This document shows positions 39,421 to 60,508 of a DNA stretch of 64,000 bases, piece after piece. Source of the DNA: Echinicola rosea (GTDB lineage Bacteria > Bacteroidota > Bacteroidia > Cytophagales > Cyclobacteriaceae); assembly GCF_005281475.1 (NCBI RefSeq), contig NZ_CP040106.1:5074001-5138000 (forward strand), read 5' to 3'. The position numbers and the translations under genes were made by a program. The notes beneath the pieces are model-generated. The model saw only the letters and a list, made by a program, of their open reading frames with translations, ran no database searches and was not told the DNA's origin. Position 1 is the first letter of the stretch. Every line of letters begins with the position of its first letter.

Positions 39421-39423
39421 GGT

Positions 39424-40290: not shown

Positions 40291-40294
40291 GGTA

Positions 40295-42415: not shown

Positions 42416-42416
42416 A

Positions 42417-43457: not shown

Positions 43458-44083
43458 GGCTGTAAGGATTTGATGGTCTTCAGGTTTCCGGATGCCTTTT
43501 TCCTTTGGAGGTCTAATACGGCCGCCTCATTGTTGAATATCCGCACGAATACATAGCGGTCCTTTATCCCATCAAAGATCCGGTCAATGGCCGCCATCCG
43601 TTCCTTGTCGGTCATCTGCAGCTTTCCCCCGGTGATGACCAGCAGCAGCTCTTCGATGTTGCGGGCGCTCATCTCGAGCAGGTTGCCGTAGACCAGGGCC
43701 AGGTAATCGAGCTCTTCGCGGGTAAACCGTCCACGGTCGAGAAACTGGCGGTAGGCCCTGCGGTATTCGTCCAAAATGAGCTTTTGATAGTTGATGATCC
43801 CGCCCACCTTATGGTAGCGCCGTACCACCGGGCTGACCGCGGAGAGCCCATCGATAAATACCTTGTGCAAAGAGAAATTGCCCGAGGCAATGTCCCTTAC
43901 CGCATTATAGCCACGGCTGAGCGTCCGGTAGCCCTTGTACATATCGTCAAGGACCTGCTTGAACTGGCTGAGCTTTTCCACGTTGAGCAGCAGCTGTGCG
44001 GTTTCGCCGACCTGGGCCATCGCCACTTGCGGTGTACCCCACAGGCTGCCCATCAGCAATAGTATGGTCAAATAGTGTTTCAT
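43454..44083 (-). CDS. TerB/TraI-like exported protein, paralogue C
   Basis: 209 residues; signal peptide (ILLLMGSLWGTPQVAMAQ). Mostly helical: FKQVLDDMYKGYRTLSRGYNAVRDIASGNFSLHKVFIDGLSAVSPVVRRYHKV, then REELDYLALVYGNLLEMSARNIEELLLVITGGKLQMTDKERMAAIDRIF. This architecture matches proteins annotated as TerB-like or conjugal transfer TraI in Cytophagales elements. Two neighbours share it. Probably a periplasmic accessory of the transfer apparatus. It overlaps both adjacent genes by four bases. Confidence 0.72.
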   Translation of the reverse strand: MKHYLTILLLMGSLWGTPQVAMAQVGETAQLLLNVEKLSQFKQVLDDMYKGYRTLSRGYNAVRDIASGNFSLHKVFIDGLSAVSPVVRRYHKVGGIINYQKLILDEYRRAYRQFLDRGRFTREELDYLALVYGNLLEMSARNIEELLLVITGGKLQMTDKERMAAIDRIFDGIKDRYVFVRIFNNEAAVLDLQRKKASGNLKTIKSLQP

Positions 44084-44742
44084 GGTGCTTTTAGTGTTTG
44101 TAGTTTCCGAATGGTTTGCAAATCCCCCGCATGCCAGGCCCGGTGCCGCAGCAGCTGGTAGTTTTCCCGGTTAAAGCCCCGGACAAATCCGTCCAGTCCC
44201 TGTAGCTCCCCGTAAAGCCGGTCGATGAGTCTTAGCCGCTCCCCTTCGGAGAGTTCCAGCCCCGGCTGCAGGGCCACGGCCATCAGTTCGTCCAGCAGCT
44301 TGGATGCCGTTGACACCGCATTGTCGAATACCTGTCCGAAATACTGCTTTTCGGAAGGCTTCAACCTGCCCTGGGCAGCAAACAGCTTTTTGGCCGTTTT
44401 GATCCTTTCCAACAGGCGCAGCTGTAGGGCGATAAATTCCGGGACAACCCGGTAATTGCTGACAGCAGGACTGATCGAGGCCAGGCTGCCAAAGAAATCC
44501 CCGTGCAGGTTGAATTCCCCGTTGCCGACCATCTGGACCGCGTTCCAGCCATCGCGCATTATCCCATAGCCTTTCCGCGCATAACCGATGTAGAGCTGAA
44601 GGCCGCTGACCTGTTTGGCCAAATATTCCTTCTGGGTCTTTTTCTGCCGGAACCATTCACTGAAGGTCTGGGCATTCCCGGTGGCCGAAAAGAGCAGGAG
44701 GAAAACCAATAGCAGCTGAAATGTTGACCTTTTATATTCCAT
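44080..44742 (-). CDS. TerB/TraI-like exported protein, paralogue B
   Basis: 220 residues from ATG 44742, giving a signal peptide (FQLLLVFLLLFSATGNAQ). The mature start TFSEWFRQKKTQKEYLAKQVSGLQLYIGYARKGYGIMRDGWN is typical of the family, followed by NGEFNLHGDFFGSLASISPAVSNY and SEGERLRLIDRLYGELQGLDGFVRGFNREN. It aligns in plan with the genes at 43454 and 45171. The ATG overlaps the end of the upstream hypothetical gene by 11 bases; the frame opens further upstream (44916) without supporting features. Confidence 0.75.
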   Translation of the reverse strand: MEYKRSTFQLLLVFLLLFSATGNAQTFSEWFRQKKTQKEYLAKQVSGLQLYIGYARKGYGIMRDGWNAVQMVGNGEFNLHGDFFGSLASISPAVSNYRVVPEFIALQLRLLERIKTAKKLFAAQGRLKPSEKQYFGQVFDNAVSTASKLLDELMAVALQPGLELSEGERLRLIDRLYGELQGLDGFVRGFNRENYQLLRHRAWHAGDLQTIRKLQTLKAP

Positions 44743-45178
44743 ACCGTCTTGATTTTTGTTGTACCACTGGGTTGACCATTTTAATGGCCAGCTTCCGCGA
44801 AGGGATGTCCTGGATATCCTTGGGGGAAAGCTTGCGTTCCTGTATGATCCTGCCAAACCTGTCCCGGTGGCTGATTTCCATACATGAAAGCTTCCACTTG
44901 TCCATTCCATCAGCATCCAGCTTTAGCCGGGCCATGGTATAATCACTTCCTTCCCCTTTCCATTGCAGGTAGGTACTCATGGTAAGTCCATTGGCGGGAT
45001 AGTCCTCTTTTCCTTTTATGAAAGCATTGATATACCCCCTTATGGATGAGGTAAATTTTCCCGGATAGGCAGCCTTGCAATGGTAGGCCCCGTCATAGCC
45101 CTTGGCCTTCAGGACGGGCATCCAGTGATGGGCCATTTCCAGAAGCTTCCGCAGGGTTGTTATCTGTTGTCTATTCAT
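44732..45178 (-). CDS. Hypothetical protein in the tra operon (148 aa)
   Basis: Starts MNRQQITTLRKLLEMAHHWMPVLKAKGYDG and continues with GYINAFIKGKEDYPANGLTMSTYLQWKGEGSDYTMARLKLDADG, LSCMEISHRDRFGRIIQERKLSP; ends VQQKSRRYGI. No signal peptide or membrane segment; not recognised. It overlaps the genes on either side (8 and 11 bases), so it is a true member of the operon. ATG 45178 is preferred over upstream openings because it is the first Met with sensible helical sequence. Confidence 0.7.
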   Translation of the reverse strand: MNRQQITTLRKLLEMAHHWMPVLKAKGYDGAYHCKAAYPGKFTSSIRGYINAFIKGKEDYPANGLTMSTYLQWKGEGSDYTMARLKLDADGMDKWKLSCMEISHRDRFGRIIQERKLSPKDIQDIPSRKLAIKMVNPVVQQKSRRYGI

Positions 45179-45860
45179 GGATTTCCTTGAGTGTTTTGAT
45201 TGCTCCCTTGGCATAGCTGCGCTGCCTTGCGATGAGCAGGTTCCGCTCATTGAAGCGCATCAGGTCGTTGAGGTTGAAGCGCACCTTCTTTGCTGTCCGG
45301 TCGATCCGGGCAAGCCGCTCGCCGTCGTCCATTTTCAGGTTAAAGGCGCTGACCACGCCGAGCACCTCTTCCAGGTTGCGCACCGAATGGTCAAGAATGC
45401 CCAAATACACCTTTTCCATCCAGCGCAGCTCTTCTGCTGAAAACTGCCCGCTTGCGGTAATGTGCTGCCAGGCTTTTTGGTATTCACTCACCAGTCGCCC
45501 TTGCTTTTCTGCAATGTCCCGCACCTTTTGGTACTGGCTTATGGTACTTTTTACTTTCCAGAGCCCATCGTAATAGTCTCCGTACAGTTCCTTCTGCCGC
45601 TCGCCCCACTCGGCAATTTCTTCGAGCTTGAGCTTGTTGAGCGCATTTTCGAGTACCTGCTGGGCATTCTGCAGCCATATCGTGTTGTTCTGCATCCGCT
45701 GGATCTTCAGATCGATGGCCACGATGGCCTTTTTCACCCCTTTGCGGATTATCTCCAGGATATAGGCCGGTACTGCCGCCTCCGAGCGGGGCATTTGGGG
45801 AGCCCCAAAAAACAGCAGCCCGGCCAATAATCCTGCTTTCCATATGTTTGGCAACTTCAT
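45171..45860 (-). CDS. TerB/TraI-like exported protein, paralogue A
   Basis: 229 residues; signal peptide (MKLPNIWKAGLLAGLLFFGAPQMPRSEAAV). The mature part is helical: ILEIIRKGVKKAIVAIDLKIQRMQNNTIWLQNAQQVLENALNKLKLEEIAEWGERQKELYGDYYDGLW and HSVRNLEEVLGVVSAFNLKMDDGERLARIDRTAKKVRFNLNDLMRFNERN. It corresponds to proteins called TraI in Cytophagales transfer operons. It overlaps traG by four bases. Confidence 0.78.
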   Translation of the reverse strand: MKLPNIWKAGLLAGLLFFGAPQMPRSEAAVPAYILEIIRKGVKKAIVAIDLKIQRMQNNTIWLQNAQQVLENALNKLKLEEIAEWGERQKELYGDYYDGLWKVKSTISQYQKVRDIAEKQGRLVSEYQKAWQHITASGQFSAEELRWMEKVYLGILDHSVRNLEEVLGVVSAFNLKMDDGERLARIDRTAKKVRFNLNDLMRFNERNLLIARQRSYAKGAIKTLKEIHE

Positions 45861-48325
45861 ATCTCCCCTCCTTTCATTTCCGCGGCCACTTCCGCAATGC
45901 CTTTTTCAAGGTCCCCGCCAAAGGCATTGGCCCTTTCCTGCACCTTTATCTTCTCCTTTTGCTCGGTGGTATAGGCCAAATATTCCTCGGGAGACACCTC
46001 GGTACGGTACACCTTACTGACCGGCCCAAGGCCGATAAAGACTTCCTTGTACTTTTTGCCCGGTTCGTTGGCCCTGTTGATCGACATGATCTGCATGGTC
46101 TCCTTTTCGGTGAGTCCCAAAAGCTCCCGGATCCCGTCGAACTTGTTGCGGTATTTGGACTGGTCCAAAAGGATCTTGCAGTCCGAGTTGTTGATGATGG
46201 CCTGCTTGATGATGGGGCTGGAGATGATGTCCTCTACTTCTTGGGTGACCACCACGGCCTCACCGAAGAACTTCCTGACCGTCTTGAAAAGGTAGCGGAT
46301 GTATTCTGCCATCCCCTCTTTGGCAATGGCCTTCCAGGCCTCCTCGATCAGGATCATCTTGCGCACGCCCCGCAGTTTCCGCATCTTGGAAATAAAGATC
46401 TCCATGATGATCAGTGTCACCACCGGAAACAGGATGGGATGGTCCTTGATATTGTCGAGCTCAAAGACAATGAAGCGTTGCTCCAGAAGGTCAAGGTTTT
46501 CTGTGGCATTGAGCAGGTAATCGAATTCCCCGCCACGGTAATAGGGCCGCAGCACGTAGAGGAAATTGTCGATGTCAAAGTCCCGGTCCTTTACCCCTTG
46601 CGCTTCCAGCTGTGCTTTGAACCCGTTGGAACAGTATTCAAAAAAGCTGTCGAAGCAGGGAAAGGTATCCGCATCCAGGCTTTCGTAATAGCTGCCCAGG
46701 GCATTGGAGATGGCCACGTACTCGCTGCGCGTAAAGGTCTCATCGTCCTTTTTCCACAGGGCCAACAGCAGCGTCTTGATGCTTTCCTTCTTTTCGGTGT
46801 CCAGCACACGGCCGCCCAGATGGAAGGGGTTGAAGCAGATGGGACGGTCCTCTTCATAGGTGAAGTAGTACCCTCCTACCAGGTCACACAGTCCTTTATA
46901 GGAATGGCCCACATCGACCAACACGACGTGCGAACCTTGGGCATGGTAGCTGCGCACCATATGGTTGGTAAAGAAGCTCTTGCCACTGCCCGAGGGGCCG
47001 AGGATGAACTTGTTGCGGTTGGTGGTCCAGCCCCGCTCCATGGGTTCATCGGAAAGGTCCACGTTGACCGGTTTTCCGGTCTGCCGGTCCCCCAGCCGCA
47101 TACCGAATGGCGAGGGACTGGAAAGATAGCCCGTCTCCATGTTGAAAAGGCAGCTGGCCTGCCGGCCAAAGGTCAGGAAGGTCTCCTCTATGGGAAGGGC
47201 CGCCGCATTGCCGGGAATCCCTGCCCAGAACAATTGCGGTGCGGCAAGGCTTTCCTCTTTGGCCACCGCATCGATCCTGGCGAAGGCCGCCCCGACCTTG
47301 TTCCGGATGGATTTGGTCTGCTCCGAACCCTCCGACCAGGTGAGCACATTGAAATGTGCCCTTACCGGCCAGCTGCCCTCTGCAATGCTTTCGTTCAGGA
47401 AGGCCTGTATGGCCTCTTTTGCATGCAGGTTTTCCCTGGAATAATGGGCCAGGCTTTGCATGCGCAATGCCCTGCTTTCAAGTTGCTTTGCTACCGCCTG
47501 CCGGTCTTCGACGATGACGTACTGGTTATAGATATGGTCAATATCCAGCAACTGGCCCAACGGGGCTGCCAGGCCGATGGTATAGGCCTTCTTGTCGGTG
47601 CTGTACGCTTCATGGGGGATTTGGTCGGACAACACATTGGGGAGCCTGTCCATTTCTGATAGGGAAAATACCTGCATCCTGGAAGTGCCTATCCGCAGTT
47701 CCGGTTTGAAGGCAATGTCCTTTATTTGGGGTTTTCCATCACAGGGACCCAGGAACAGGTAGCGTTCCAATAGCCCCGGCCTTTGGGCGGTGCCCAGGTA
47801 ATCAACCTCCTCCAAACGCCGGATTTCCATGCCACTTTCGGAGACCAGCTGGACAAATTGCCCCAGCACGTTTTCAAATTCCTCCAGTCTTTTTGCATCC
47901 AAAAGTTCAGGAGGAAGAAACCTTGGGGAAAGCAGGTTGGAAGTGGCCAGCCCGGCCGGCTTTTTCCCCTTTCTTGGCAGGCTAAGGAAAAGGTAGCATC
48001 GGTGGTCAAGGTAGGGACGCTCATGGAAGAACAGCCCGCTGCTCCTGTCCAGGAAGTCTTTGTCTCCTTTTCGGACAAGCCCCTCAAACCGCTTTTTTGC
48101 AAACCAGTCCTGCTTATGGAGCACACAGCCTTCCGGAAGGAGCCTGATCGCCTTGGCCCAGGAGGACTGCAGGGCTGTGTAGCCCGGGCCGTCAAGGGTA
48201 AAGATTTCCGGCAGCTGCACTTCATAACCGGCGGTGATGTCGCCTGCGCCCGAAATCAGGAATCCCTTTTCCAGTTTGCTGATGGGAAACCAGTTGATCA
48301 TCTCTTTTACATTGGGACTATCCAT
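45857..48325 (-). CDS. traG: Conjugative transposon ATPase TraG (VirB4-like)
   Basis: 822 residues from ATG 48325. Powers assembly or substrate transfer in the type IV secretion system. Walker A is GPSGSGKSFFTNHMVRSYHAQGSHVVLVDVGHSY (about 440-472) and Walker B KMILIEEAWKAIA (about 655-667). The N-terminal VirB4 domain includes MDSPNVKEMINWFPISKLEKGFLISGAGDITAGYEVQLPEIF, and the C-terminal part VVTQEVEDIISSPIIKQAIINNSDCKILLDQSKYRNKFD. Start 48325 overlaps the traF end by eight bases; an upstream ATG at 48364 is less likely. Confidence 0.95.
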   Translation of the reverse strand: MDSPNVKEMINWFPISKLEKGFLISGAGDITAGYEVQLPEIFTLDGPGYTALQSSWAKAIRLLPEGCVLHKQDWFAKKRFEGLVRKGDKDFLDRSSGLFFHERPYLDHRCYLFLSLPRKGKKPAGLATSNLLSPRFLPPELLDAKRLEEFENVLGQFVQLVSESGMEIRRLEEVDYLGTAQRPGLLERYLFLGPCDGKPQIKDIAFKPELRIGTSRMQVFSLSEMDRLPNVLSDQIPHEAYSTDKKAYTIGLAAPLGQLLDIDHIYNQYVIVEDRQAVAKQLESRALRMQSLAHYSRENLHAKEAIQAFLNESIAEGSWPVRAHFNVLTWSEGSEQTKSIRNKVGAAFARIDAVAKEESLAAPQLFWAGIPGNAAALPIEETFLTFGRQASCLFNMETGYLSSPSPFGMRLGDRQTGKPVNVDLSDEPMERGWTTNRNKFILGPSGSGKSFFTNHMVRSYHAQGSHVVLVDVGHSYKGLCDLVGGYYFTYEEDRPICFNPFHLGGRVLDTEKKESIKTLLLALWKKDDETFTRSEYVAISNALGSYYESLDADTFPCFDSFFEYCSNGFKAQLEAQGVKDRDFDIDNFLYVLRPYYRGGEFDYLLNATENLDLLEQRFIVFELDNIKDHPILFPVVTLIIMEIFISKMRKLRGVRKMILIEEAWKAIAKEGMAEYIRYLFKTVRKFFGEAVVVTQEVEDIISSPIIKQAIINNSDCKILLDQSKYRNKFDGIRELLGLTEKETMQIMSINRANEPGKKYKEVFIGLGPVSKVYRTEVSPEEYLAYTTEQKEKIKVQERANAFGGDLEKGIAEVAAEMKGGEI

Positions 48326-48644
48326 GTTTTTTGCGGTCTTGTTTCCTGATAAATTCCCTGTCACGCACTTTGATCCCCATGGGTACCTTGCGGAAGGCCA
48401 TGCGCTTTTTCAGGCCATGTTCACCGTATTTGCGGTTCAACCCGAATACTCCTTCTATAAGCAAATAGCCCATAAAGCCACAGGCTGTTCCGTTGATCCA
48501 AAAGGATATGCCCAGCACATAGCCCATGGCAAACAACAGCAGCAATACCACCAGGCCGATGCCCAGGTAAAGGATATATTGTGCCTGCAGGCCTTTAAAA
48601 GAGATCGGCCTGTTGACGCCCTTGTTGAGGGTAAACCGTTTCAT
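48318..48644 (-). CDS. traF: Conjugative transposon protein TraF (VirB3-like, DUF4133)
   Basis: 108 residues: MKRFTLNKGVNRPISFKGLQAQYILYLGIGLVVLLLLFAMGYVLGISFWINGTACGFMGYL, two TM helices, then LNRKYGEHGLKKRMAFRKVPMGIKVRDREFIRK. This is the DUF4133/TraF pattern. ATG 48644 is preferred to an in-frame TTG at 48653. Confidence 0.9.
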   Translation of the reverse strand: MKRFTLNKGVNRPISFKGLQAQYILYLGIGLVVLLLLFAMGYVLGISFWINGTACGFMGYLLIEGVFGLNRKYGEHGLKKRMAFRKVPMGIKVRDREFIRKQDRKKHG

Positions 48645-48645
48645 A

Positions 48646-48951
48646 TCAACCAAAGAAGCTGGTGAGTACGGTGGCCACGATGACCAAAAACACGCAGCTG
48701 CCGAACCAAGCGGCGGCCACCTTTCCGGTGTCCGGTTCCCCTGAATTCCACTTGTTGAACACTTTCACTGCGCCGATCAGCCCGACGATGGCACCGATGG
48801 CATACATCAGGTTCACGCCAGACTGGAAGTAGCTGCGCACCTTGGTGGTGGCCTCCATAATACCGGCATTGCCGTCCTGTCCGAATACCGACAGGGAAAT
48901 CCCTGTCAGCAACAGGGCCAACAGCCCTTTACTGAATTGGTTGTTTGTCAT
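48646..48951 (-). CDS. traE: Conjugative transposon protein TraE (VirB2-like, DUF4134)
   Basis: 101 residues: signal-like start (FSKGLLALLLTGISLSVFGQ), then DGNAGIMEATTKVRSYFQSGVNLMYAIGAIVGLIGAVKVFNKWNSGEPDTGKVAAAWFGSCVFLVIVATVLTSFF with two TM segments. Resembles pilin-like VirB2/TraE. ATG 48951 is chosen because earlier openings lack a signal sequence. Confidence 0.88.
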   Translation of the reverse strand: MTNNQFSKGLLALLLTGISLSVFGQDGNAGIMEATTKVRSYFQSGVNLMYAIGAIVGLIGAVKVFNKWNSGEPDTGKVAAAWFGSCVFLVIVATVLTSFFG

Positions 48952-49276
48952 GTTGTGAAGGTTTAGCGTTTTCCCTTTCCACCACCTGGCAGAAGGGTTC
49001 TTTTGCAAGCATGTCCAATTGGATATGGGAAGGAATGAGCAGTTTGCCCTTTTTGAACCTTGGAGGATCAAGGCCAGCATGGATTTTGGCATACTCCTGG
49101 AATGCACGGCACAGGGGTTCATTCTCCGGAGGTGTGAAGTGTACCTGTAGGCGCTTTTTTCTTTTGGCCAGAAAAAAGGGACCGTACAGGACCGCTAGCA
49201 CGATCAAATAATACAGGAGAAGGATTCCGGCCAATGCTGACCAGAAGCCTGGGCTGAACGTGATCCATTCCGGCAT
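48929..49276 (-). CDS. Small membrane protein, first gene of the tra operon
   Basis: 115 residues: MPEWITFSPGFWSALAGILLLYYLIVLAVLYGPFFLA (one or two helices) followed by a basic turn KRKKRLQ and a soluble tail ending ERENAKPSQHDKQPIQ. Not recognised by family; its place just before traE suggests a TraD/TraC-like role. It overlaps traE by 23 bases. The repeated 25-base motif lies 53 bp upstream of its start. Confidence 0.6.
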   Translation of the reverse strand: MPEWITFSPGFWSALAGILLLYYLIVLAVLYGPFFLAKRKKRLQVHFTPPENEPLCRAFQEYAKIHAGLDPPRFKKGKLLIPSHIQLDMLAKEPFCQVVERENAKPSQHDKQPIQ

Positions 49277-49329
49277 ATCCTTTTTTGGTTTGATGATGGG
49301 TCAAATCTCAAAAAGGCCGGAATAAAAAA

Positions 49330-49361: not shown

Positions 49362-49463
49362 TTATAAGTTATTCAGTTCATGTAATCCGGCACCTATGGG
49401 AATACCAAAAAAAGCAGATGTTTCCCGCCAGTAACCCTCATCGTCAAGGTACCAAATTGGCAT
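49362..49463 (-). pseudogene. Orphan C-terminal reading frame joined to the kinase gene
   Basis: A 33-residue frame (MPIWYLDDEGYWRETSAF, then FGIPIGAGLHELNNL, TAA 49362-49364) overlaps the end of the kinase gene in another frame. Its composition is protein-like, yet it is too short to be a full gene, so it may be the tail of a lost gene or of the kinase after a frameshift. Confidence 0.35.
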
Positions 49464-49881
49464 ATCCCTCTCTGAACCTTTTCTCTATCTCAAAATCGGG
49501 AACATAATGTCCATTATTTTCCACTCTTATGGCCACCCTTTTCTTTGCCTCGGCAATGGAATCCAAACAGAAATAGATCATATTCACCTCATATTGATTC
49601 TTTTTAAAGACTACTGGCCAATTTAATGGAGTAGAGTTGAAATTAGTTTCATAAGAAAATGATTGACACTGATCTATGGCCTCTTGGATTTGCTTTTCCA
49701 ACTCCCCAAAAGCCATATTATGTGCCATTGTTTCTTGAAATTCAGAAGGGATTAACGATTGGTAAATACGCAAAAAATGCTTGTCATAATCAAACACCTC
49801 TACCGCATCAGGAGATAAACCTTGTGAAAAAGAAGATTTGCCTGCTCCATTACATCCGGCGATTACTAAAAGTTGAGGCAT
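49444..49881 (-). CDS. Zeta-toxin-like P-loop kinase, apparently truncated
   Basis: 145 residues. P-loop VIAGCNGAGKSSFSQG (about 6-21), NMAFGELEKQIQEAIDQCQSFSYETNFNS, VNMIYFCLDSIAEAKKRVAIRVENNGHYVPDFEIEKRFREGYANL fit the zeta/AAA_33 kinase family, whose toxins phosphorylate UDP-N-acetyl sugars. Family members usually continue another 40-60 residues after RFREGLxNL; here the frame stops two codons later. An orphan frame abuts it. It begins three bases after a small gene, the layout of a toxin-antitoxin pair. Other AAA kinases are possible. Confidence 0.7.
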   Translation of the reverse strand: MPQLLVIAGCNGAGKSSFSQGLSPDAVEVFDYDKHFLRIYQSLIPSEFQETMAHNMAFGELEKQIQEAIDQCQSFSYETNFNSTPLNWPVVFKKNQYEVNMIYFCLDSIAEAKKRVAIRVENNGHYVPDFEIEKRFREGYANLVP

Positions 49882-50302: not shown

Positions 50303-51145
50303 TTACCCCATCCCATCCCCCTCCTCCATATACCCCTCCAATTTCTCCCTCAGGTTGTCCAAAAACACGGTCCTTCCCTTTTTCCGGATACGGATTTCCT
50401 GGAAGATGCGGTAGATGTCCCCTATTTTGGTCCCAAGGATTTGCTCCAGGTTCCGGGCAAGCTCTTTGATGCCGATCTCCCCGTTGTTGAACACGTTGCA
50501 CACTTTTAGGGCGTAGATCAGCTCGACCAACTGGACTTTCTGGGCGGTCCACTTTAGCTTGGAAGGGGGCTGTGCGGGACTTTTTACCCCGTCCAGTTCC
50601 TGCAGCATTTCCTGCATATATTGGTTGATCCGTAGGACTGCCTGCAACGTACTCACCTGGATGCTGTGCACCGTACAGCAGCGGTTGTCGATGGTGCTGT
50701 GGTATCCGTGGGGCAAGCTCACGTCGCTCCTGGCCCTACGGAGAAAATACTGCGTATCAAAGTGGCGCTGGTCGAGCAGCATATAATTGTACAGGGCACG
50801 GTGTCGGTCCATATAGCCCTTGAGACTTCGCTGCTCCTCCAAAAAATAGTCTCTTTGTGCCTGTTTACCGGTCAGCGGACGGTTGGATTCCAGGATAAAC
50901 AGCTCGGCATAGTAGATGGACTCGGACTGGAACCGGGGCTTTATCCTTTTGAAGAAATGGATCTCCTCCTCTTGGCCGTCAAAGGTGTATGTACAAACAA
51001 ACCCGTTCAACTTCCCCAGCACCTGCTCGGTATGTTGGAAGGCCGATTCCAGTTGGATCAGTTTGTCCCTGCCCTGAAGGCTGATCAGGGAAAGATCATT
51101 TTCCAATTCCTTTTTCAGTTGATGTGCATATTGTTCAAGGATCAT
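50303..51145 (-). CDS. rteC: RteC-like conjugative transposon regulator
   Basis: 280 residues. HFFKRIKPRFQSESIYYAELFILE (about 65-88), DYFLEEQRSLKGYMDRHRALYNYMLLDQRHFDTQYFLR, and the C-terminal winged-helix-like LKWTAQKVQLVELIYALKVCNVFNNGEIGIKELARNLEQILGTKIGDIYRIFQEIRIRKKGRTVFLDNL match RteC, which in CTnDOT activates excision genes. It follows the CRP-like gene after 14 bases, so both are probably on one transcript and form the element's control module. Confidence 0.92.
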   Translation of the reverse strand: MILEQYAHQLKKELENDLSLISLQGRDKLIQLESAFQHTEQVLGKLNGFVCTYTFDGQEEEIHFFKRIKPRFQSESIYYAELFILESNRPLTGKQAQRDYFLEEQRSLKGYMDRHRALYNYMLLDQRHFDTQYFLRRARSDVSLPHGYHSTIDNRCCTVHSIQVSTLQAVLRINQYMQEMLQELDGVKSPAQPPSKLKWTAQKVQLVELIYALKVCNVFNNGEIGIKELARNLEQILGTKIGDIYRIFQEIRIRKKGRTVFLDNLREKLEGYMEEGDGMG

Positions 51146-51159: not shown

Positions 51160-52689
51160 TTAGTTTGTTGTTTTTTTGGATAGGACCTTACCGTACCATT
51201 CTGGCCAGGCCATTACCTGTTGCTCGACCAACCGTAAAAATTCCGCCACTTCTTGCTTTGCAGGACCTTCAATATTTCCAAAGTTTTCTTTTTTACATTG
51301 CTCCATTTGGTCATGGACCTTTTCAAAGGAGTCCCTTAACCCCTCAAGAACAGCATCCATGAACACCTTGCCCAACCTCACTTCCAAGTTGACATAGTTA
51401 TGGGGAAGGTCCCCAAAGACCTTGGTCTTTCCCACCATCATTTCATTGGAGATAATGATAAGGCTAATGGCCAATTCCATAAATGTTTCCAGGTCCTTGC
51501 GGTACTTATGGATACTTTCCCACAGTTCCCTATGGACTATTTTCAAACAGGCCATTCCTAACCTTCCCTCTGAAAACTTCGCCCTATATGCCCTGTAATC
51601 GAGCATATCGGATTTATCCTTTGCCATATGGCTTCCTGCTCTCCATTCCCTTTCCTTCAGGTAGCTTTTTAAGATGACGACGACCATTTCCAGTTCCTTA
51701 TCGGTCATCCAGGATCCAGCAAGTTCCATAAGGTCCTTCAGGGCAGAAAAGTAAGCGTTCAACCTGGGGACATTGGAAGAATTCCCCCTGCCTTCCAGAA
51801 TATTATGGAAGCCCCTTTTGACCTTTTCCCAGTAGAAAGGCCCTTCACCATAATGGAAATGGTACATGAACAGGTCTATGGCAGTCAATAAGGCCATCAG
51901 TTTTCCGGCCCATTCTACCCTGTCCTCCTTGCCCATTGGAAATGCGCGTACTATTAGAAAAGGAAGGTTAAGCTGCTGCATTTTTTTCACGCCATCAGGA
52001 TCCGCCAACAAAGGATAGTAGTCCACCCAGCTCCGTACTTTATGCCTGATCATCCTACTGTTGGGGTGGATACTGGGGGCTACACCCAATTTTTTAAGGA
52101 ATGGCCAATCCATTTTCCCATTGTTGAATTTTTCTTCAAAACGTGAAATGGTTTTGGGCGACTTTCCCAATAATTGGGCAAACCTCCTTTTGGGAAGCCT
52201 TTTTTCAAGCCCCTCCAGGGTTTCCCGGAACCGGGGAACGGCCTGTTCCAGGGGCAATGATTTAATGCTTTCAAAAAACCTGTCCAGTTCATCAAACTGG
52301 TTGTAAAGGGCCTTTGACAGTGGTCCGAAGGCAGGAATACTTTCCAGCATCTTCTGTTCGGAATCCGTATCCATAAATACCACCAGGGTTTCTTCCAGTG
52401 CTTCCAACGCATAGGGACTTGATCTTTCCAATGCCCTGTTGGCCCTGTCCATGACCAGGTGTTTCTGGGGAAAAACCTTTACCAGTCCTTCATTGATATT
52501 CATGCCCACGAGCCCTTCCATGACCAGGTAACAGTTTCTCTCCGTTACACCTGAAGTCCTGATGATCCGCCGCTTTTTGTAACGTTGGAAGGAAACCAGG
52601 TCCTGTAATTTTAAATAGTTGTCCCAATCCACCCGTAAGATACCATCCAATTGGGTTTTGAGCAGTTTCAGATTAGTTAGTTTATCCAT
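51160..52689 (-). CDS. CRP/FNR-type regulator with a degenerate terpene-synthase-like C-terminal domain
   Basis: 509 residues from ATG 52689. Residues about 25-115 look like a cyclic-nucleotide-binding domain (FQRYKKRRIIRTSGVTERNCYLVMEGLV) and about 160-190 a CRP-type helix-turn-helix (LPKRRFAQLLGKSPKTISRFEEKF). Residues about 215-470 are all-helical and line up in order with bacterial class I terpene synthases: FLIVRAFPMGKEDRVEWAGKLMALLTAIDLF, then YRAYRAKFSEGRLGMACLKI, then ISNEMMVGKTKVFGDLPHNYVNL. The DDxxD (here IDLFM) and NSE (N415 kept; Ser and Glu positions are V419 and K423) metal motifs are lost, so catalysis is unlikely. The fold call is by eye. Confidence 0.6.
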   Translation of the reverse strand: MDKLTNLKLLKTQLDGILRVDWDNYLKLQDLVSFQRYKKRRIIRTSGVTERNCYLVMEGLVGMNINEGLVKVFPQKHLVMDRANRALERSSPYALEALEETLVVFMDTDSEQKMLESIPAFGPLSKALYNQFDELDRFFESIKSLPLEQAVPRFRETLEGLEKRLPKRRFAQLLGKSPKTISRFEEKFNNGKMDWPFLKKLGVAPSIHPNSRMIRHKVRSWVDYYPLLADPDGVKKMQQLNLPFLIVRAFPMGKEDRVEWAGKLMALLTAIDLFMYHFHYGEGPFYWEKVKRGFHNILEGRGNSSNVPRLNAYFSALKDLMELAGSWMTDKELEMVVVILKSYLKEREWRAGSHMAKDKSDMLDYRAYRAKFSEGRLGMACLKIVHRELWESIHKYRKDLETFMELAISLIIISNEMMVGKTKVFGDLPHNYVNLEVRLGKVFMDAVLEGLRDSFEKVHDQMEQCKKENFGNIEGPAKQEVAEFLRLVEQQVMAWPEWYGKVLSKKTTN

Positions 52690-52910: not shown

Positions 52911-52997
52911 TTTTAAAAATTCAGATACAAAACATTGACTTTTAACCAATTACCATCATAACTTCAATACCAACAAATCAACAATGGGAAAACAGTG

Positions 52998-53492
52998 ATG
53001 AGCAAAAGGATACAGTCGAAAGAAAATCAAACCAAACTAAAAGCAATCTTCACTTTGGTGACCGTCATCCTTTTCCTGGTAATCTGGACCTTTACGGGAT
53101 TGGAAAAACTGATCAACTGGCAGGTGTCCTATAAGGCATTTCACAACCAGCCTTTTCCATTTTCGCTGGCAGATATGTTGGCTTACGGGATCCCCATAAC
53201 CGAACTGCTGCTGGCCTTCGCATTGGCGGCAAAACCACTTAGATGGTGGGGGTTAATGGGATCGGTCCTGTTGCTTTCCGTATTCACTACCTATGTAGGA
53301 TTGATCTGGTGGAATGTCTTTGACCGTGTCCCCTGCAACTGTGCCGGTTTTATAGAAGCTATGGGATGGCCCGGGCATTTCTATTTCAATAGTGCATTGC
53401 TATGCCTTGGAATAGCGGCACTTTGGATGGAGCGTGTGGATGGCCAGATGATCAGCAATAAAAATACAATTCATGAAGATAAAATATCATAA
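52998..53492 (+). CDS. MauE/DoxX-like membrane protein
   Basis: 164 residues with four TM helices (AIFTLVTVILFLVIWTFTGLEKL; ADMLAYGIPITELLLAFALAA; LMGSVLLLSVFTTYVGLIWW; FYFNSALLCLGIAALWM). FTGLEKLINW-type DoxX start and the periplasmic CNC in RVPCNCAGFIEAMGWPGHFYFN match MauE-like proteins, which support disulfide formation in exported partners. ATG 52998 follows a GTG at 52995. The small exported protein downstream carries two cysteines. Confidence 0.82.
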   Translation: MSKRIQSKENQTKLKAIFTLVTVILFLVIWTFTGLEKLINWQVSYKAFHNQPFPFSLADMLAYGIPITELLLAFALAAKPLRWWGLMGSVLLLSVFTTYVGLIWWNVFDRVPCNCAGFIEAMGWPGHFYFNSALLCLGIAALWMERVDGQMISNKNTIHEDKIS

Positions 53493-53499
53493 TACCGCT

Positions 53500-53626: not shown

Positions 53627-53730
53627 ATCGCTTTTGGATACGTTCCCAATAACCCAATTGTTGGGGACCAAAGGCAACTTAATTTAATGTTTAACCATGG
53701 CTAACCAACGCCATACAAAATGAAAAAGTG

Positions 53731-54012
53731 ATGAAAAAGTTAATAAAAAGGCTGCCGGTGCTGGCTTTGGCACTCGCAGCTACAGCGGCATTTGCATTCA
53801 ACATGCCGCGTGAAATGGTAGGGGAATATGCACAAGACCCCAATAATCCCGGAACTTGGTTCGATCTGACCAATGAGGTTCCCGGTGAGGACACCTATCA
53901 ATGCGATGGCGAAATGGAAACCTGCACTAGGGATCAACCAAATCCATCGGGAACGGAGATCAAAACCGGCGAATTCATCCAGAACGGGGAATTGCCCGTT
54001 CATGAGGACTAA
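53731..54012 (+). CDS. DUF6520-like small exported protein (93 aa)
   Basis: Signal peptide MKKLIKRLPVLALALAATAAFAF, then QDPNNPGTWFDLTNEVPGEDTYQC, a Cys pair (CDGEMETCTRDQP, about 58-64) and IKTGEFIQNGELPVHED. This is the DUF6520 layout (PxNPGTWxDLT, two Cys, TGxFI) common in Bacteroidota. ATG 53731 is preferred to GTG 53728. Neighbours are a MauE-like protein (same strand) and SusC/SusD/TlpA (facing), suggesting a secreted redox-active or signal-like peptide; its role is unknown. Confidence 0.8.
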   Translation: MKKLIKRLPVLALALAATAAFAFNMPREMVGEYAQDPNNPGTWFDLTNEVPGEDTYQCDGEMETCTRDQPNPSGTEIKTGEFIQNGELPVHED

Positions 54013-54042
54013 GCTTTAAGCAAATGAACTTAAAATGGTAAA

Positions 54043-54070: not shown

Positions 54071-54072
54071 TA

Positions 54073-55449
54073 TTATCTGGGATTCTGCTCAAGACCGTTC
54101 AATTCTGTTTCCTCGGGAGGCAACGGGAAAGTATAACGGGAATCCCCAGGGGGCAGGACAATTTCCTCACCATTTACCGTCCTTGTAAGGGTGACACTCC
54201 ATTTTTCTTCCCTGTTAAGCCTTCTCAGGTCCATCCACCGAATGTTCCGGAAAAGCAGCTCCTTTCTCCTTTCTTCCAGGATTATCTCCAACAGCCCATC
54301 CTCATCGGCAATGTTCACGGGGACATATGAACCCGGTGCCATCCTGTGCTCCAGGAAAATGTTCAGGGCATCCTGTGCTTCTTCCAGCCTTCCTGTCCTG
54401 GCCGCTCCCTCTGCAAAGGTCAGCACCAGTTCCCCTGTACTGATCCCGCCAAAAAACAGGTATCCTCCGGTAAAACTGCCCTTGAAACTATAAAAGCCGT
54501 CCTCTTCCCCAGGCTCAAAAAATACGGATTTTCTAAAATCCCCTTCTCCGTACAGGGCGTAAAGCTCTGGGGCGACATAAGTCATGTTGCTTGTGGTGTA
54601 CCGACCGCTGGGAAGAGTGGCATAGTATATCGTTTCAGGGTTCAGTTCTCCTATTGGGTATGGTGCCGAGGGATCGAGCCCTGAAAAATCGATAAGCCCA
54701 TCGCCTATGGCCATGGCGTTCCCGGCATGCCCGTAGGCTTTTTCATAATCCCCCAGCACCAAACTGAACCGGGCCAATAGGCTTTCTGCCGCCCATTTGG
54801 ATCCCCTTGTGGAATATTCCGCCTTATCGGGCAGTAACGAAGAGGCTTCCCGGAGGTCTGCCAATATCCGGTCCACCAGTTCGGGAACCGTTGACCTTCG
54901 GGGAAGCTTGTTCACGTCCGAGCTGCCCTTCAGGGGAAGTCCCAATGGATCATGTCCCCCAGGCTCATAGGGTCTTGTAAAGATTTCCATCAATTGGGTA
55001 TAGGCGTGTCCCCTCATAAACAGGGCCCTGCCCTTGATATGCCTTGCACGAAGCTCTTCATCTGTATCCATGGGAACATGATCCTTTAGCCCATCCAGCA
55101 CCACATTGGCCAAAAAAACCTGCTGGTAGGGAGTTGCCCAGTCAGAAGAATAGGGCTGTGCCGGGGTAAATATTTCTTTTTCCCAGGTATAGGCAGCCTG
55201 TTGCTGCTCGGAAAGGTTGTCCAGTACTGATGGGGACAGCAACATATCGTCGCTGGAAACCAGCCCAATATGGGGAACCGAGTTGGTATTACGGTTCATG
55301 GCATCCATAACGCCCTGTAAGTCGTCCAGGGTACTGGGCACCACCAAGGCCTTGTCCGGCTTGGCATCCAAAAACTCCTCGCAGGAGCTCAAAAGGTGTA
55401 CGATGCTGATGATCATGATGAAGATGGGGTATTTATAGTGATTTTTCAT
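54073..55449 (-). CDS. SusD/RagB family outer membrane lipoprotein
   Basis: 458 residues; lipoprotein signal (FIMIISIVHLLSSC). CEEFLDAKPDKALVVPSTLDDLQGVMDAMN is the classic SusD N-terminus; TPR-like helical part with GRALFMRGHAYTQLMEIFTRPY and RSTVPELVDRILADLREASSLLPD, and the end ILEERRKELLFRNIRWMDLRRLNRE. It caps the SusC barrel and binds the substrate. The 236-bp gap from susC is unusual but same-strand. Confidence 0.92.
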   Translation of the reverse strand: MKNHYKYPIFIMIISIVHLLSSCEEFLDAKPDKALVVPSTLDDLQGVMDAMNRNTNSVPHIGLVSSDDMLLSPSVLDNLSEQQQAAYTWEKEIFTPAQPYSSDWATPYQQVFLANVVLDGLKDHVPMDTDEELRARHIKGRALFMRGHAYTQLMEIFTRPYEPGGHDPLGLPLKGSSDVNKLPRRSTVPELVDRILADLREASSLLPDKAEYSTRGSKWAAESLLARFSLVLGDYEKAYGHAGNAMAIGDGLIDFSGLDPSAPYPIGELNPETIYYATLPSGRYTTSNMTYVAPELYALYGEGDFRKSVFFEPGEEDGFYSFKGSFTGGYLFFGGISTGELVLTFAEGAARTGRLEEAQDALNIFLEHRMAPGSYVPVNIADEDGLLEIILEERRKELLFRNIRWMDLRRLNREEKWSVTLTRTVNGEEIVLPPGDSRYTFPLPPEETELNGLEQNPR

Positions 55450-55686: not shown

Positions 55687-58600
55687 TCAGAAAGTCACGT
55701 TCAGGCCCAGTGAAATGCTTGAAAGCGACCTGTTGTCCAGAAAATCGGGATCTTTCACCCTGTCGCTTGCTTTCCAGATAATGCCCAGGTTGTTGGCATA
55801 GGTATAGATTTCCAGGTGCGAGAAATAGCTGTTCCCAGGCTCCATCCGATAGGACAACCGGATATCCTGTAGGCGGATATGGTCACCCTTCTCCACGATC
55901 GCCGAAGACTGGGAATAAAACCGGTTCCTTTGATAGTCGGCACTCTCCCCCATGGACGGGATATCGGTAAACTGTTCATCTCCCGGCTGCTGCCACCTAT
56001 TGCTATAATCACCGTGGGTAATATCCCCACGCAGCAACTGGTAATAATTAACATAGGGTCTTTTGAAATAATAACCCAGCCTATAGGTGATGTTCACGGA
56101 GAGGGAAAGGTTTTTCCATGACAGGTCATTGCGGAGGGCCCCGGAATGGACAGGCCTTGCAGGCCCGTGATAGACCAGGTCTTCCGTAGCGGTGCTCCCG
56201 ATGATTTCGGCATATTCGGTACTGGGTTCCCCATCCAACAGCCCCCTGGGATCGCCCGTATCGGGATCGAGCCCCGCCCAGGGATAGCTGAAAATTCCCC
56301 GCAGCGGATATCCCTCCAGCGGCTGGGGACTGGAAGAGCTGACCCCATAGGATACCAGGCTGTTGACCGTCGGTTCGGCCTCATAGCCGGTCACCTTTTC
56401 GGAAACATAGGTATGCAGTAAGGTGGTACTCCACTTTAGTTTGCCACCCAGGTTTCGGCTGGTCAGGTCAATATCCAGGCCATGCGCCCGAGTGTCGGCA
56501 TAATTTCCCCTGAACGTCCGTATGCCGGAAGAGGCCGGATAAGGGCGCGTGCCGATCAGGTCAATGCCTTCCTTAAGGTAAAACTCCACGCTCCCACTGA
56601 CTGTTCCGCCCCTGCTTGCAAAGTCCAGCCCGAAATTGGTGATCCTGATCTTCTCCCAACGCAGGTCCGGGTTGGGTGGGTTGTCGATAAATACGGAGGG
56701 CAGGCCCGTCAGCCGGTTGTACGCTCCTGCCATAAACCTCCCCGTGGTGTAGGCCGATACCGACTTGTCGATGTTTCCGTTATAGCCATAGGTGGCACGG
56801 AGCTTCAGGAAGTCCAGCCAATTGCTTTGCATAAAGCCTTCCTCACTGAGGATCCATCCAAGCCCCGCTGACCATAAGGGCACCCCCCGCTGGTTGGCAT
56901 CTACCCCGAAAAGGTTGGAGGCATCCTTCCTTACACTTCCGTTCAGCAAATATTTGCCCTTGTATTCATAGGCGGCATTGCCGAATACGGAGGCAAACCG
57001 GTCGAGTGTCCCCGTATGACTGGCCATATAGGGAATACTGGCGTTGTAGCCATTGTGCAGCCGGGGATAGCTGTTCGCATAGTCCACGGGCACATCTGTG
57101 CCCCTTTCATCATTGTAACCGTAATAGCGGTCCCCGTTCCCTTCTGTCCCAAAATCCCTGATTTCAATCCCCACAAGCCCGGTCAGCCGGTGGTCTGTTC
57201 CAAAAAGCTGGTGGTAGTCCAGCTGCCCCCGCAAATCCTGGCCGATCCCGTTGCTGGCAGAACGGTCCATGATGCCTCCCACAGGCACTGGCCTTATAAG
57301 CGATCCATCCCCTTCGATCTGGGTAAACTGGTTGACCAGGTCCCTTGCTAAATAACTTTCTTCCGGATGCACCCTGCGGTCGGTGGACTGGATATTCCGG
57401 TATTGATAGCGCACGGTTCCTTTCAATTGGGGAAGCAGCTTTATGCCAATATCAACATTGAACCGCAGGTCCTGTTGCTTTCCGATGGAAGGGGCCATAC
57501 CGATTTCGTCCAAGGGCACATACTCCCAGTCCAGTAGTCCCGAGCCTTCCAGGCTTTCCTTGAAGCGGGCACTGTAGTCGCGGTAAACGGGCAGGGGATT
57601 CCCGGCACCATCGGCCAACCTGTCGTAGGGACCGGCCATGGCTATGGCGGGACTTCCGTTTTCTGACCTGTTCTGCACATAATAGCCGCCCACACCGATA
57701 TCCAGCCGGTCTTTCCATAATTTCCAGCCCTGTTTTGCAGAAAAGGTCAAGCGGCTGTCCTTATTGGCCACCGTCCCGTTTCGGTTATGGTCGTAGCCCA
57801 TGGAATATTGGTAGCGGGAATGCTCCCCTCCTCCCCTTACGGCAAGGGAGTATTGTTGCCTTATTGCCGGACGGTAAATGTATTCGGAAAGGTCATCCCT
57901 CACATCCGAGGAAGCAAATCCCGCCAACCGGCTTTCCATTTCTGCCTCGCCGATCAGCCCTTCCCTGTGGGCATGGAGGGTTTCCACCACCGGGGATACC
58001 AGGCTGTTGCTGGAACTGTTGATACGGCTGTCATAAAAGCCGTCCTCAAAAAGGTACCGCTCAACGTCCACAAAATCACTGATTGGCATCTGGGAACGGT
58101 AAAAGGGATCCTCCTGCTGTACCCAGGTGGTATTGGCATTGAAATCCACTTGGGTATTTTGGTTGAACTGTCCGGACTTGGTGGTGATGACAATGACCCC
58201 GTTCCCGGCCCTTGCCCCCCAGATGGATGCCGCAGCAGCATCCTTCAGTACGGTCATGGAGGCCACATCATTGGGGTTGATATTGTTGGGGTCACCTTCA
58301 AAGACCATGTTGTCCACTACGATCAGGGGGCTGTTCTCGGCAAAGAGCGAACCGGTTCCCCGTATGCTGATGCTCTCCCCTACACCGATGTCCCTGTTCA
58401 CTACCAGTCCGGGCACCATGTTTTCCAGCCTGTCAAGCACGCCAGTGCTTACCCGTCGGTTGATTTCGGTGTCGTCCAGTGTGCTGAACGATCCGGTGGT
58501 ACGCTCTTTTGACAGTTCCTGGAAACCCGTGGAGACCACCTCTGCGGTCTCCAGTTCCGTACTTTTCTCGGAAAGCAGGATCTTCAGTGGACCGGAAACG

Positions 58601-58875
58601 GGTACATCTATCTCGATCTCCCTTTTTTCATAGCCCAGCATGGATACTGAAATGTGGAGTTTTCCTTCTCCGGCAAAAAAGGAAAACATCCCTTCTTCAT
58701 TGCTGACCGTTCCCTTTTTGGTCTCTTTCAGGATAATGGAAGCTCCGGGAATGCCCTGCAGGCCATGTTCGTCCAGTACGGCTCCTTCCACTTTGAATTT
58801 CTCGGTTGTCTGGCCAAATAGGGAACCCGTTCCCATGGACAGCCAGACCAACAAAAGCAGTATTTGGTATTTCAT
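55687..58875 (-). CDS. SusC/RagA family TonB-linked outer membrane protein
   Basis: 1062 residues from ATG 58875 (signal peptide ILLLLVWLSMGTGSLFGQ). Carboxypeptidase-regulatory-like domain (FKVEGAVLDEHGLQGIPGASIILKETKKGTVSNEEG), plug with VSTGVLDRLENMVPGLVVNRD, PLIVVDNMVFEGDPNNINPNDVASMTVLKDAAAASIWGARAGNGVIVITTK, then a long beta barrel ending SSISLGLNVTF. Imports a substrate with SusD using TonB. The cargo is not a known polysaccharide here, as no glycoside hydrolase is adjacent. Confidence 0.95.
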   Translation of the reverse strand: MKYQILLLLVWLSMGTGSLFGQTTEKFKVEGAVLDEHGLQGIPGASIILKETKKGTVSNEEGMFSFFAGEGKLHISVSMLGYEKREIEIDVPVSGPLKILLSEKSTELETAEVVSTGFQELSKERTTGSFSTLDDTEINRRVSTGVLDRLENMVPGLVVNRDIGVGESISIRGTGSLFAENSPLIVVDNMVFEGDPNNINPNDVASMTVLKDAAAASIWGARAGNGVIVITTKSGQFNQNTQVDFNANTTWVQQEDPFYRSQMPISDFVDVERYLFEDGFYDSRINSSSNSLVSPVVETLHAHREGLIGEAEMESRLAGFASSDVRDDLSEYIYRPAIRQQYSLAVRGGGEHSRYQYSMGYDHNRNGTVANKDSRLTFSAKQGWKLWKDRLDIGVGGYYVQNRSENGSPAIAMAGPYDRLADGAGNPLPVYRDYSARFKESLEGSGLLDWEYVPLDEIGMAPSIGKQQDLRFNVDIGIKLLPQLKGTVRYQYRNIQSTDRRVHPEESYLARDLVNQFTQIEGDGSLIRPVPVGGIMDRSASNGIGQDLRGQLDYHQLFGTDHRLTGLVGIEIRDFGTEGNGDRYYGYNDERGTDVPVDYANSYPRLHNGYNASIPYMASHTGTLDRFASVFGNAAYEYKGKYLLNGSVRKDASNLFGVDANQRGVPLWSAGLGWILSEEGFMQSNWLDFLKLRATYGYNGNIDKSVSAYTTGRFMAGAYNRLTGLPSVFIDNPPNPDLRWEKIRITNFGLDFASRGGTVSGSVEFYLKEGIDLIGTRPYPASSGIRTFRGNYADTRAHGLDIDLTSRNLGGKLKWSTTLLHTYVSEKVTGYEAEPTVNSLVSYGVSSSSPQPLEGYPLRGIFSYPWAGLDPDTGDPRGLLDGEPSTEYAEIIGSTATEDLVYHGPARPVHSGALRNDLSWKNLSLSVNITYRLGYYFKRPYVNYYQLLRGDITHGDYSNRWQQPGDEQFTDIPSMGESADYQRNRFYSQSSAIVEKGDHIRLQDIRLSYRMEPGNSYFSHLEIYTYANNLGIIWKASDRVKDPDFLDNRSLSSISLGLNVTF

Positions 58876-58897
58876 GTGTTCTTGGTTTAAATGGTAA

Positions 58898-60508
58898 TTA
58901 TCGATGGGCCATGGTATTTTCACTTTTATGGCTATCAATGGCCGAAATGATATTGCCTACCTGTTCACCGTAGGTCCTGCCAAAGCTGCCAAAGCGGATA
59001 ATTTCTCCTTCCGGCGAAAGCAGGATAACATAGGGCGAACTCCTGATCTCATAGAAATCCATCCAGGATTTTCCTTTTGCCCCTGCCCAGAGGTTTTCAA
59101 GTCCCTTGTTGGTATAAATCCCCTCTTGGATACTCTGCTTCCATCGTATGGGGTCCTTGTCAAAGGAGATGGACAGGATGGAAAGGTCCACGCCGTCCCT
59201 GTCCTCCAGTTCCTTTATGACTTCCTCATGGTATTTACCGCTTGCCCCACAGCCGGAAAACCAAAAGTACAGCAGCTTGTATTGCCCACTGGCCCCCAAT
59301 AGGGGCACCTCTTTGCCGTTTGGACCGATCATGTCAACATCCCTGATCTTCCGGCCTTCTCCCAGCTTTTCGGTCAAGGCTACCAGACGTTCCTTCCATG
59401 GACTGGCCTCCACCTCTTCAAGTGCCGCTTGCAGGGCGGACTCCCTGTTGGGCAACCTTTTATAGTATTGGGATACATAAGCGGCCATCAGCCTGTCCTT
59501 GAAAGCTCCCGAATGCAGCTTGCGCACCGTGCTGTTAAAGGAAGTTTCCGTTACCAGGGCCCTGGTAATACAGTATTCCAACTGGTATGCGAGATAGCCC
59601 ATCGACAGGTTGGCCACCTCGATATCCACTTCATCCAGCGGGATTTCCTCCAAATGGTCGGTAAACAGGGAAACCAGTTCGGCTTTGGGAATGTCTCCGG
59701 GATAGCTGAAAAAGGTCTTGCGGAACTGGGCCAGCTTGCCCAGGTAATAATGGCCGATCAGGTCAGCTTTCAACATTTCAAACTCCAACGGTGAAAGCTC
59801 CTTTTCGTAATGGTGCAGGACCTTCCAGGCAGGATCACTTTGCCAGCCTGCCCTGATACCGGCAAAAAGTTTATCAAGTGTTTCCCGCCTGTTTTCCACA
59901 AAGACAACTTTTCCCCCAAACTCACGGTTGGCCGTTTCGAACACCCTTCGGTTGTCGCCATCGGAAAGCAGCTCTTCCTTTTTAGGTGTGTTGAACACCA
60001 GGGGCCGGTCGAATTCAACAGCCTTTCGGGCAAGGTCCATGTCCCGCCTGACCCGGTAGCGCAATGCATCGGGACCAGCAAAAAGGATATGGTTTTCCTC
60101 CCGGTCAACTTTGATCTTCACACTGTCCCCGGGAAAGACCAGGTAATCCTCCAACAATTTGCGGTCTCCTACCTGCAACTTGAGGTATCCTGGATGGACA
60201 ATCGGATCAATCTTGAACCGGAATTTGTAGGTATGTTCTGCGGCAATCCCATCATAAAATTCACCGGAAACGGGCAGGGTATCCATTATAACAGGATTGG
60301 GTACAATGGGCCTGGAATGGAGGTAATCTTCCATGACGGTCAGCTCCACATTTTCGGGACCGTCCACGGAAACCAACTCCCCGTAAACCACCACCGGGGC
60401 ACCAGCAGGCACCTTCCCGGTGGCAGGGGGTGAGGCAACTTGGCTATAGGATCTGCTTCCCAAAAGGCATAGCAATGCCAGGAAGCATAAATAAGTTCTT
60501 ATTTTCAT
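58898..60508 (-). CDS. TlpA-like thioredoxin family protein with a single active-site cysteine
   Basis: 536 residues; signal peptide (YLCFLALLCLLGSRSYSQ), a long N-terminal region (about 30-400) with a beta domain (VVVYGELVSVDGPENVELTVMEDYL), and a thioredoxin fold at the end. The active site is LLYFWFSGCGASGKYHEEVIKEL (about 412-433): CGAS instead of CxxC, so it lacks the resolving cysteine. Other landmarks: LSILSISFDKDPIRWKQSI, SSPYVILLSPEGEIIRFG. Lies 22 bases before susC; TlpA-SusC-SusD operons are common in the phylum. Confidence 0.88.
   Translation of the reverse strand: MKIRTYLCFLALLCLLGSRSYSQVASPPATGKVPAGAPVVVYGELVSVDGPENVELTVMEDYLHSRPIVPNPVIMDTLPVSGEFYDGIAAEHTYKFRFKIDPIVHPGYLKLQVGDRKLLEDYLVFPGDSVKIKVDREENHILFAGPDALRYRVRRDMDLARKAVEFDRPLVFNTPKKEELLSDGDNRRVFETANREFGGKVVFVENRRETLDKLFAGIRAGWQSDPAWKVLHHYEKELSPLEFEMLKADLIGHYYLGKLAQFRKTFFSYPGDIPKAELVSLFTDHLEEIPLDEVDIEVANLSMGYLAYQLEYCITRALVTETSFNSTVRKLHSGAFKDRLMAAYVSQYYKRLPNRESALQAALEEVEASPWKERLVALTEKLGEGRKIRDVDMIGPNGKEVPLLGASGQYKLLYFWFSGCGASGKYHEEVIKELEDRDGVDLSILSISFDKDPIRWKQSIQEGIYTNKGLENLWAGAKGKSWMDFYEIRSSPYVILLSPEGEIIRFGSFGRTYGEQVGNIISAIDSHKSENTMAHR

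Follow-up and report, generated by a model that had tools for sequence, protein, structure and literature searches.

The 64,000-nucleotide stretch of the Echinicola rosea genome analysed here (contig NZ_CP040106.1, positions 5,074,001 to 5,138,000; the window) contains a gene whose product joins a Crp/FNR-type regulator to a C-terminal domain with the predicted fold of a class I terpene synthase (TPS), lying between the rteC gene of a conjugative element and a locus of SusCD, TlpA-like, MauE and DUF6520 genes (Table 1). An earlier note, made from the letters alone, had drawn attention to this frame, and all of the peptides it quoted are present in the translation. The N-terminal Crp/FNR regulator with a helix-turn-helix (HTH) that it described also stands: a profile of 13 Crp domains matches 3dn7 (E 2.6e-12) and CAP 1i6x (E 3.1e-8; aligned chain residues 19-191), and the Crp half of the predicted model consists of strands and then helices, giving the cyclic nucleotide monophosphate (cNMP)-type barrel, long helix and C-terminal HTH of Crp/Fnr regulators. 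No Arg (0/18) occupies the alignment column which we take to be the Crp pocket position of the Arg contacting cyclic AMP in E. coli CRP, which makes some other input plausible, with the attached TPS domain as the natural candidate.

Two public homologues, P0002 (from the named Echinicola strongylocentroti) and P0003, share 53-54% identity with the fusion protein over 97% of its length. Pfam is weak for the single window protein, which scores below both relevant cut-offs (cNMP_binding 14.2 against 27.5 bits; PF19086 16.4 against 23.7 bits), and the profile search proposed in the earlier note succeeded in relatives rather than in the protein itself: P0003 (25.4 bits), L006 and L007 pass PF19086, and P0002, L002 and L008 give no match. 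Among ten fusions scanned with Pfam, six with intact TPS motifs score 104.7-122.4 bits against PF19086, and the four degenerate ones give 37.2, 27.2 and, for two, no match. The AlphaFold model and fold comparison predict the alpha-helical class I fold (PF19086) for the C-terminal ~310 residues with moderate confidence (mean predicted local distance difference test score, pLDDT, 77.5); this model and that of an intact-fusion control were built on the same five sequences and are not independent. Neither of the outcomes that the earlier note had named as telling against it, a fold unlike the alpha TPS bundle or homologues placing the domain in another named family, appeared, and chance similarity to TPS was rejected, the predicted fold being part of the evidence.

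The relatives were compared in 43 fetched stretches and the window, using home-made profiles and family labels from Pfam. The fusion is present in 27 contexts; in 16 others crp and TPS are separate genes reading from one strand, at most 200 bp apart in 14 pairs and about 1.4 kb apart in 2. L123 (8856-11829, genome G736, of another family) has two TPS-like genes side by side and a divergent Crp gene, with no SusCD locus detected in the stretch. Motif counts come from one alignment of 8 degenerate fusions, 18 intact fusions and 16 separate TPS, with L049 and L123 left out. The three Asp of DDxxD (Asp1, Asp2, Asp5), the Asn, Ser and Glu of the NSE triad and the C-terminal Arg-Tyr (RY) pair are all kept in 18/18 intact fusions, and the separate TPS keep the same positions save Asp5 (15/16). 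In the degenerate clade, to which the window protein belongs, Asp1 is kept in 8/8, Asp2 and Asp5 in 0/8, the NSE Asn in 8/8, Ser in 0/8 and Glu in 1/8; the RY pair is absent, with Arg in its column in 1/8 and Tyr in 0/8. The diphosphate-sensor Arg is found in 8/8 degenerate, 17/18 intact fused and 7/16 separate domains, and seven separate TPS have Leu in this column, where the alignment may be shifted. The window protein reads D-L-F-M-Y at the DDxxD/E metal motif, has V for S and K for E in the NSE/DTE triad, retains Arg369 and carries K505-K506 in the RY columns; the statement of the earlier note that the metal ligands were replaced is right for Asp2, Asp5 and the NSE Ser and Glu, but Asp272 and Asn415 are kept. 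Several replacement letters are themselves conserved within the clade, and a new motif, D-[LIV]-[FY]-M-Y, is present in 8/8. A shortened 472-residue fusion in genome G045 (L049, 5060-6478), at a locus of this type, has separately lost every TPS motif, a second such case; that genome also carries an intact fusion (L048).

Full-length fusions were matched at 16 places in 15 of 196 sampled genomes of the family, with one shortened copy besides in one of those 15; the genome searches score limited candidates per genome, so the counts are lower bounds. Matches to the C-terminal domain (E <= 1e-6) were found in 9/11 genomes of the genus, in 21/390 of the order, all in the same family, and in 3/395 of the phylum, one of them weak and in another family. 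PF19086 was detected in 21/196 family genomes, the window's gene not being among these detections. Of the 7 Echinicola genomes carrying the degenerate form, 4 gave no other TPS of the fusion's family (E <= 1e-6); any ligand would therefore be expected to be an outside compound or a general isoprenoid, for instance farnesyl diphosphate, and not always a paralogue's product. Homologue searches with A1 and A2 as queries gave the same three proteins; a related-locus search with A1 found none and one with L012 found two Cecembia loci. A tblastn search of 72,556 plasmid records gave no match, phage records not being searched.

In a tree of 47 C-terminal domains, from which L049 was left out for its long branch, all 26 fused domains lie on one side of a branch (support 100/99), and the 8 degenerate domains group together (100/100) behind a branch 2.49 changes per column long; the same clade is seen in a tree of 45 rows including L049 and in a Crp-domain tree of 65 rows (100/98). 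The TPS tree is most simply read as one fusion event, with two or more also possible, and the well-supported branches of the Crp tree, taken alone, are compatible with one origin; both trees carry long-branch warnings and neither is surely rooted. In three degenerate pairs (among L035, L038 and L116) the ratio of nonsynonymous to synonymous substitution rates (dN/dS) is 0.318, 0.224 and 0.266 for the C-terminal domain and 0.166, 0.229 and 0.191 for the Crp half. A pseudogene was rejected, given open frames in 8/8 and C-domain dN/dS <= 0.32 in these pairs, which are the 3 unsaturated ones of 28 and do not include the window's copy. Between P0001 and its closest named relative the C-terminal domain is 55.7% identical vs 51.3% for the Crp half; between L035 and L038 the figures are 67.1% vs 78.8%, and in other pairs, too, the C-terminal domain is less conserved. 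From such comparisons the domain seems to be kept by selection.

Table 1. The fusion gene and its surroundings in the window
Feature	Position	Strand	Remarks
crp-TPS fusion gene	51160..52689	-	509 aa, ATG at 52689; homologues P0002, P0003
Crp domain with C-terminal HTH	52120..52689	-	residues 1-190; profile matches
Class I terpene synthase fold domain (predicted)	51175..52113	-	residues 193-505
Degenerate DDxxD site D272-L-F-M-Y276	51862..51876	-	alignment columns
Diphosphate-sensor region R369-A-K-F-S-E-G375, Arg kept	51565..51585	-	alignment columns
Degenerate NSE triad site N415-E-M-M-V419-G-K-T-K423	51421..51447	-	alignment columns
MauE-family membrane protein	52995..53492	+	PF07291 E 9.2e-27; divergent from fusion gene, ~305 bp between the two
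DUF6520 small protein	53728..54012	+	PF20130 27.4 bits, cut-off 25.4; signal-like N-terminus, two Cys read from sequence
SusD-like lipoprotein	54073..55449	-	PF14322 E 3.5e-29
SusC-like TonB-dependent receptor	55687..58938	-	PF13715, PF07715; presumably SusC, from pairing with SusD
TlpA-like thioredoxin-fold protein	58898..60508	-	PF13905 E 1.9e-7; taken by us to be TlpA-like
rteC	50303..51145	-	PF09357 E 1.4e-65; 14 bp downstream of fusion gene, same strand
Zeta-toxin-like kinase open reading frame (ORF)	49444..49881	-	PF06414 22.8 bits, cut-off 22.3; downstream of rteC
Conjugation genes (DUF4138, TraM, TraG P-loop, DUF4133 among them)	38641..49304	-	several ORFs without Pfam match
Large serine recombinase	36039..37595	-	PF00239 E 1.7e-21, PF07508; frame overlaps ssrA 3' end
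tmRNA (ssrA)	35667-36075		

The divergent MauE gene is present in 43/43 Crp-TPS contexts, and the DUF6520, SusD, SusC and TlpA-like genes come next in most; the exceptions are cuts at contig or stretch ends, L101, in which DUF6520 was not detected, and some loci where the TlpA position matches weakly or not at all. This TlpA-SusC-SusD/DUF6520-MauE/Crp locus recurs across the sampled Cyclobacteriaceae (window 52995-60508; L035-L050, L097-L122, L154-L161), with four copies in the window's genome. Of a further 14 stretches, 6 fall outside the set, 3 carry separate crp/TPS pairs and 5 have a crp but lack a TPS. The common chassis is thus an uptake and redox locus that has a Crp of its own, with the TPS as an accessory; DUF6520, small, exported-looking and with two Cys in its sequence, stands beside redox-type proteins, which suggests a redox-handled peptide or metal system. 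In 12/27 fused contexts (L039-L048, L050 and L108) the space separating mauE from the fusion is occupied by another Crp-type gene, which is of Crp2 type in 9 and a stand-alone Crp in 3. All 12 have fusions with intact motifs, and no such gene was found in the other 15, all 8 degenerate copies included; Crp2 is a separate clade (100/100) of the Crp-domain tree. A basic protein of ~64 residues (cluster C8, no Pfam match) follows the TPS in L036, L037, L039-L041, L045-L047, L049, L050, L098, L100-L103, L105, L106 and L115, with C7 (248 residues, no Pfam match) and C9 (DUF5675-type) further on in many; no C8 locus has rteC. Promoter-like sites were at chance level (9 vs 8.0 in shuffles), and terminator-like sites numbered 10 vs 5.9 +/- 2.9.

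On its other side the fusion gene adjoins rteC, as the earlier note had said, and its placing of the gene in a conjugative element is borne out by the nearby TraG, DUF4133, TraM and DUF4138 genes, with which RadC is also present. The recombinase gene, whose end overlaps the ssrA 3' end, lies at the edge of the conjugation genes (35667-37595); a search for a second copy of that 3' end (19-mer, <= 2 mismatches) returned the ssrA copy alone, so that no attachment site was found for the far end. Downstream of the fusion, rteC is present in 14/27 fused contexts; 13 of these have 4 to 105 bp between the two genes, and in L117 the called frames overlap. Of the 16 separate crp/TPS pairs none is followed by rteC. 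rteC does follow one of the five Crp genes without TPS (L161, 8288-9882), at the same kind of locus, a Crp-rteC link without the TPS domain. Of the 14 rteC-bearing fused contexts, 10 also have a TraG gene in their stretch, and rteC and TraG together accompany 5/8 degenerate copies.

The explanation that we favour, at a probability of roughly 0.58, is a one-component regulator in which a class I TPS domain turned pseudoenzyme is joined to Crp as the DNA-binding module, with ligand sensing and targets that we infer. Sequence, trees and predicted fold together show the placing of a TPS gene after crp, separate or fused, at the recurrent SusCD/TlpA/MauE/DUF6520 locus and, in the Echinicola lineage, the loss of most metal-binding residues and the RY pair from the fused synthase, with the open frame and predicted fold kept, which suggests an enzyme turned into a regulatory part. 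The emptied active-site cavity may still bind a prenyl diphosphate or terpenoid, with the retained Arg369, Asp272 and Asn415 serving that binding; its occupancy would be passed to the Crp dimer, which would regulate the SusCD unit, the divergently oriented mauE-DUF6520 unit and the operon to which the fusion gene itself belongs. With rteC presumably part of this operon in the element copies, one signal would govern excision and transfer as well. A fuller proposal, in which the TPS fold is a dedicated isoprenoid or terpenoid sensor, the shared rteC operon couples its signal to excision and transfer, and the intact fusions of sister genera are synthase-regulators making and sensing their own signal, is held only tentatively, with the odds against it. 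The overall interpretation of the earlier note is partly supported, ligand binding by the domain and control of conjugation through rteC being the putative part of it. Since the likely intermediates (crp alone, crp with a TPS gene, active-looking fusion, disarmed fusion) coexist, the steps from enzyme to regulator are directly testable.

Several results weigh against this regulator or narrow its reach. Few active-site positions are kept in the degenerate clade (1/3 NSE ligands; 2/6 of Asp1, Asp2, Asp5, the sensor Arg and the R and Y of RY), which leaves diphosphate binding uncertain, and with Arg in just 7/16 separate TPS at the sensor column the retention of Arg369 is weaker evidence than it appears. 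dN/dS is saturated in the remaining 25/28 degenerate pairs, the window's copy being in 7 of these. The Crp-domain tree does not gather the fusions, 3 label changes being needed (2-3 in bootstrap trees), and has a weak fork (80/82) around 21/27 fused rows with six (L109-L114) outside; together with the intervening Crp genes this weakens a single-fusion history. No palindromic operator shared between crp and mauE was found beyond shuffles in 41 intergenic regions (best motif 4/41, with 4/30 shuffles reaching 4). Five loci share the chassis but have a crp without TPS, one of them with rteC, so the TPS is required neither by the locus nor by the rteC link. Finally, a conjugation-specific role is opposed by the absence of rteC from the fetched stretch at 13/27 fused loci, 3/8 degenerate ones among them, and the constant company is the SusCD/MauE/DUF6520 locus, which is therefore the more likely ancestral target.

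The TPS domain might instead now be a purely structural part of the Crp regulator, for dimerisation or stability and with no ligand, which agrees with the loss of most metal ligands, the second loss in L049 and the existence of Crp-only loci; we judge this rather unlikely. Against it, Asp272, Arg369 and Asn415 are kept in 8/8 and the P0001 C-terminal domain is about as conserved as its Crp half, though less so in other pairs. The same retained Asp1, sensor Arg and NSE Asn, with the signs of purifying selection, could instead point to an enzyme of altered chemistry, such as prenyl transfer or hydrolysis with fewer metals. Class I terpene synthase chemistry needs three Mg2+, however, and with Asp2, Asp5 and the NSE Ser gone and the RY pair absent in 8/8 this is improbable. 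That the domain is a relic heading for loss would account for its long, accelerated branch, but the open frames, dN/dS of 0.22-0.32 in the three measurable pairs, the predicted TPS fold and the conserved new motif leave this very little room.

The intact fusions may alternatively hold the key, as bifunctional synthase-regulators in which Crp receives feedback from the synthase's own product or substrate, the Echinicola form being a variant locked in one state. All metal ligands and the RY pair are kept in 18/27 fusions and a separate TPS gene follows crp in 16 contexts, and this proposal is compatible with the favoured pseudoenzyme regulator; we consider it possible, without expecting it, the activity of the intact fusions being putative and another Crp-type gene lying nearer mauE in 12/27 fused loci, where the fusion may not be the main regulator.

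Considering known systems, the closest to the C-terminal domain are the bacterial class I sesquiterpene synthases of PF19086 (T-muurolol synthase 9hqi, 1-epi-cubenol synthase 9hq2, selinadiene synthase 4okm), from which it differs in being without most metal ligands and the RY pair and in sitting behind a Crp domain. Enzyme folds reused as sensors are already known for other folds, as in MocR; no printed TPS case was found in the open-access full-text literature, where the matches listed included no Crp/cNMP-TPS fusion and no TPS pseudoenzyme or regulator. In the encapsulin system it is the shell protein that carries the cNMP domain. Family 2 encapsulin operons with terpene cyclases (PMC8346489) and the 2-methylisoborneol cnb genes (PMC3072421) likewise place a gene encoding a cNMP-type-domain protein beside a terpene cyclase gene; there, unlike in the fusion, the two are separate genes. 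None of the fusion and nucleotide-binding terms searched for is present in the accessible text of a survey of bacterial TPS (PMC7192455). The MocR/GabR regulators, a GntR HTH fused to an aminotransferase fold (PMC6917764, PMC5320631), likewise join a DNA-binding domain to a metabolic enzyme fold, there used for sensing; the domains here are unrelated (Crp and TPS) and sensing by the fusion is putative, the likeness being one of principle alone. The excision operon of CTnDOT is switched on by RteC under RteA/RteB control (PMC10865816), and in both Bacteroidota elements rteC has conjugation genes next to it. Should the signal consist of isoprenoids, conjugative transfer would have an input other than the tetracycline route of CTnDOT; the window's element differs from CTnDOT (PMC10865816) in having a Crp-TPS fusion directly upstream of rteC and, at its edge, a recombinase of the large serine rather than the tyrosine type.
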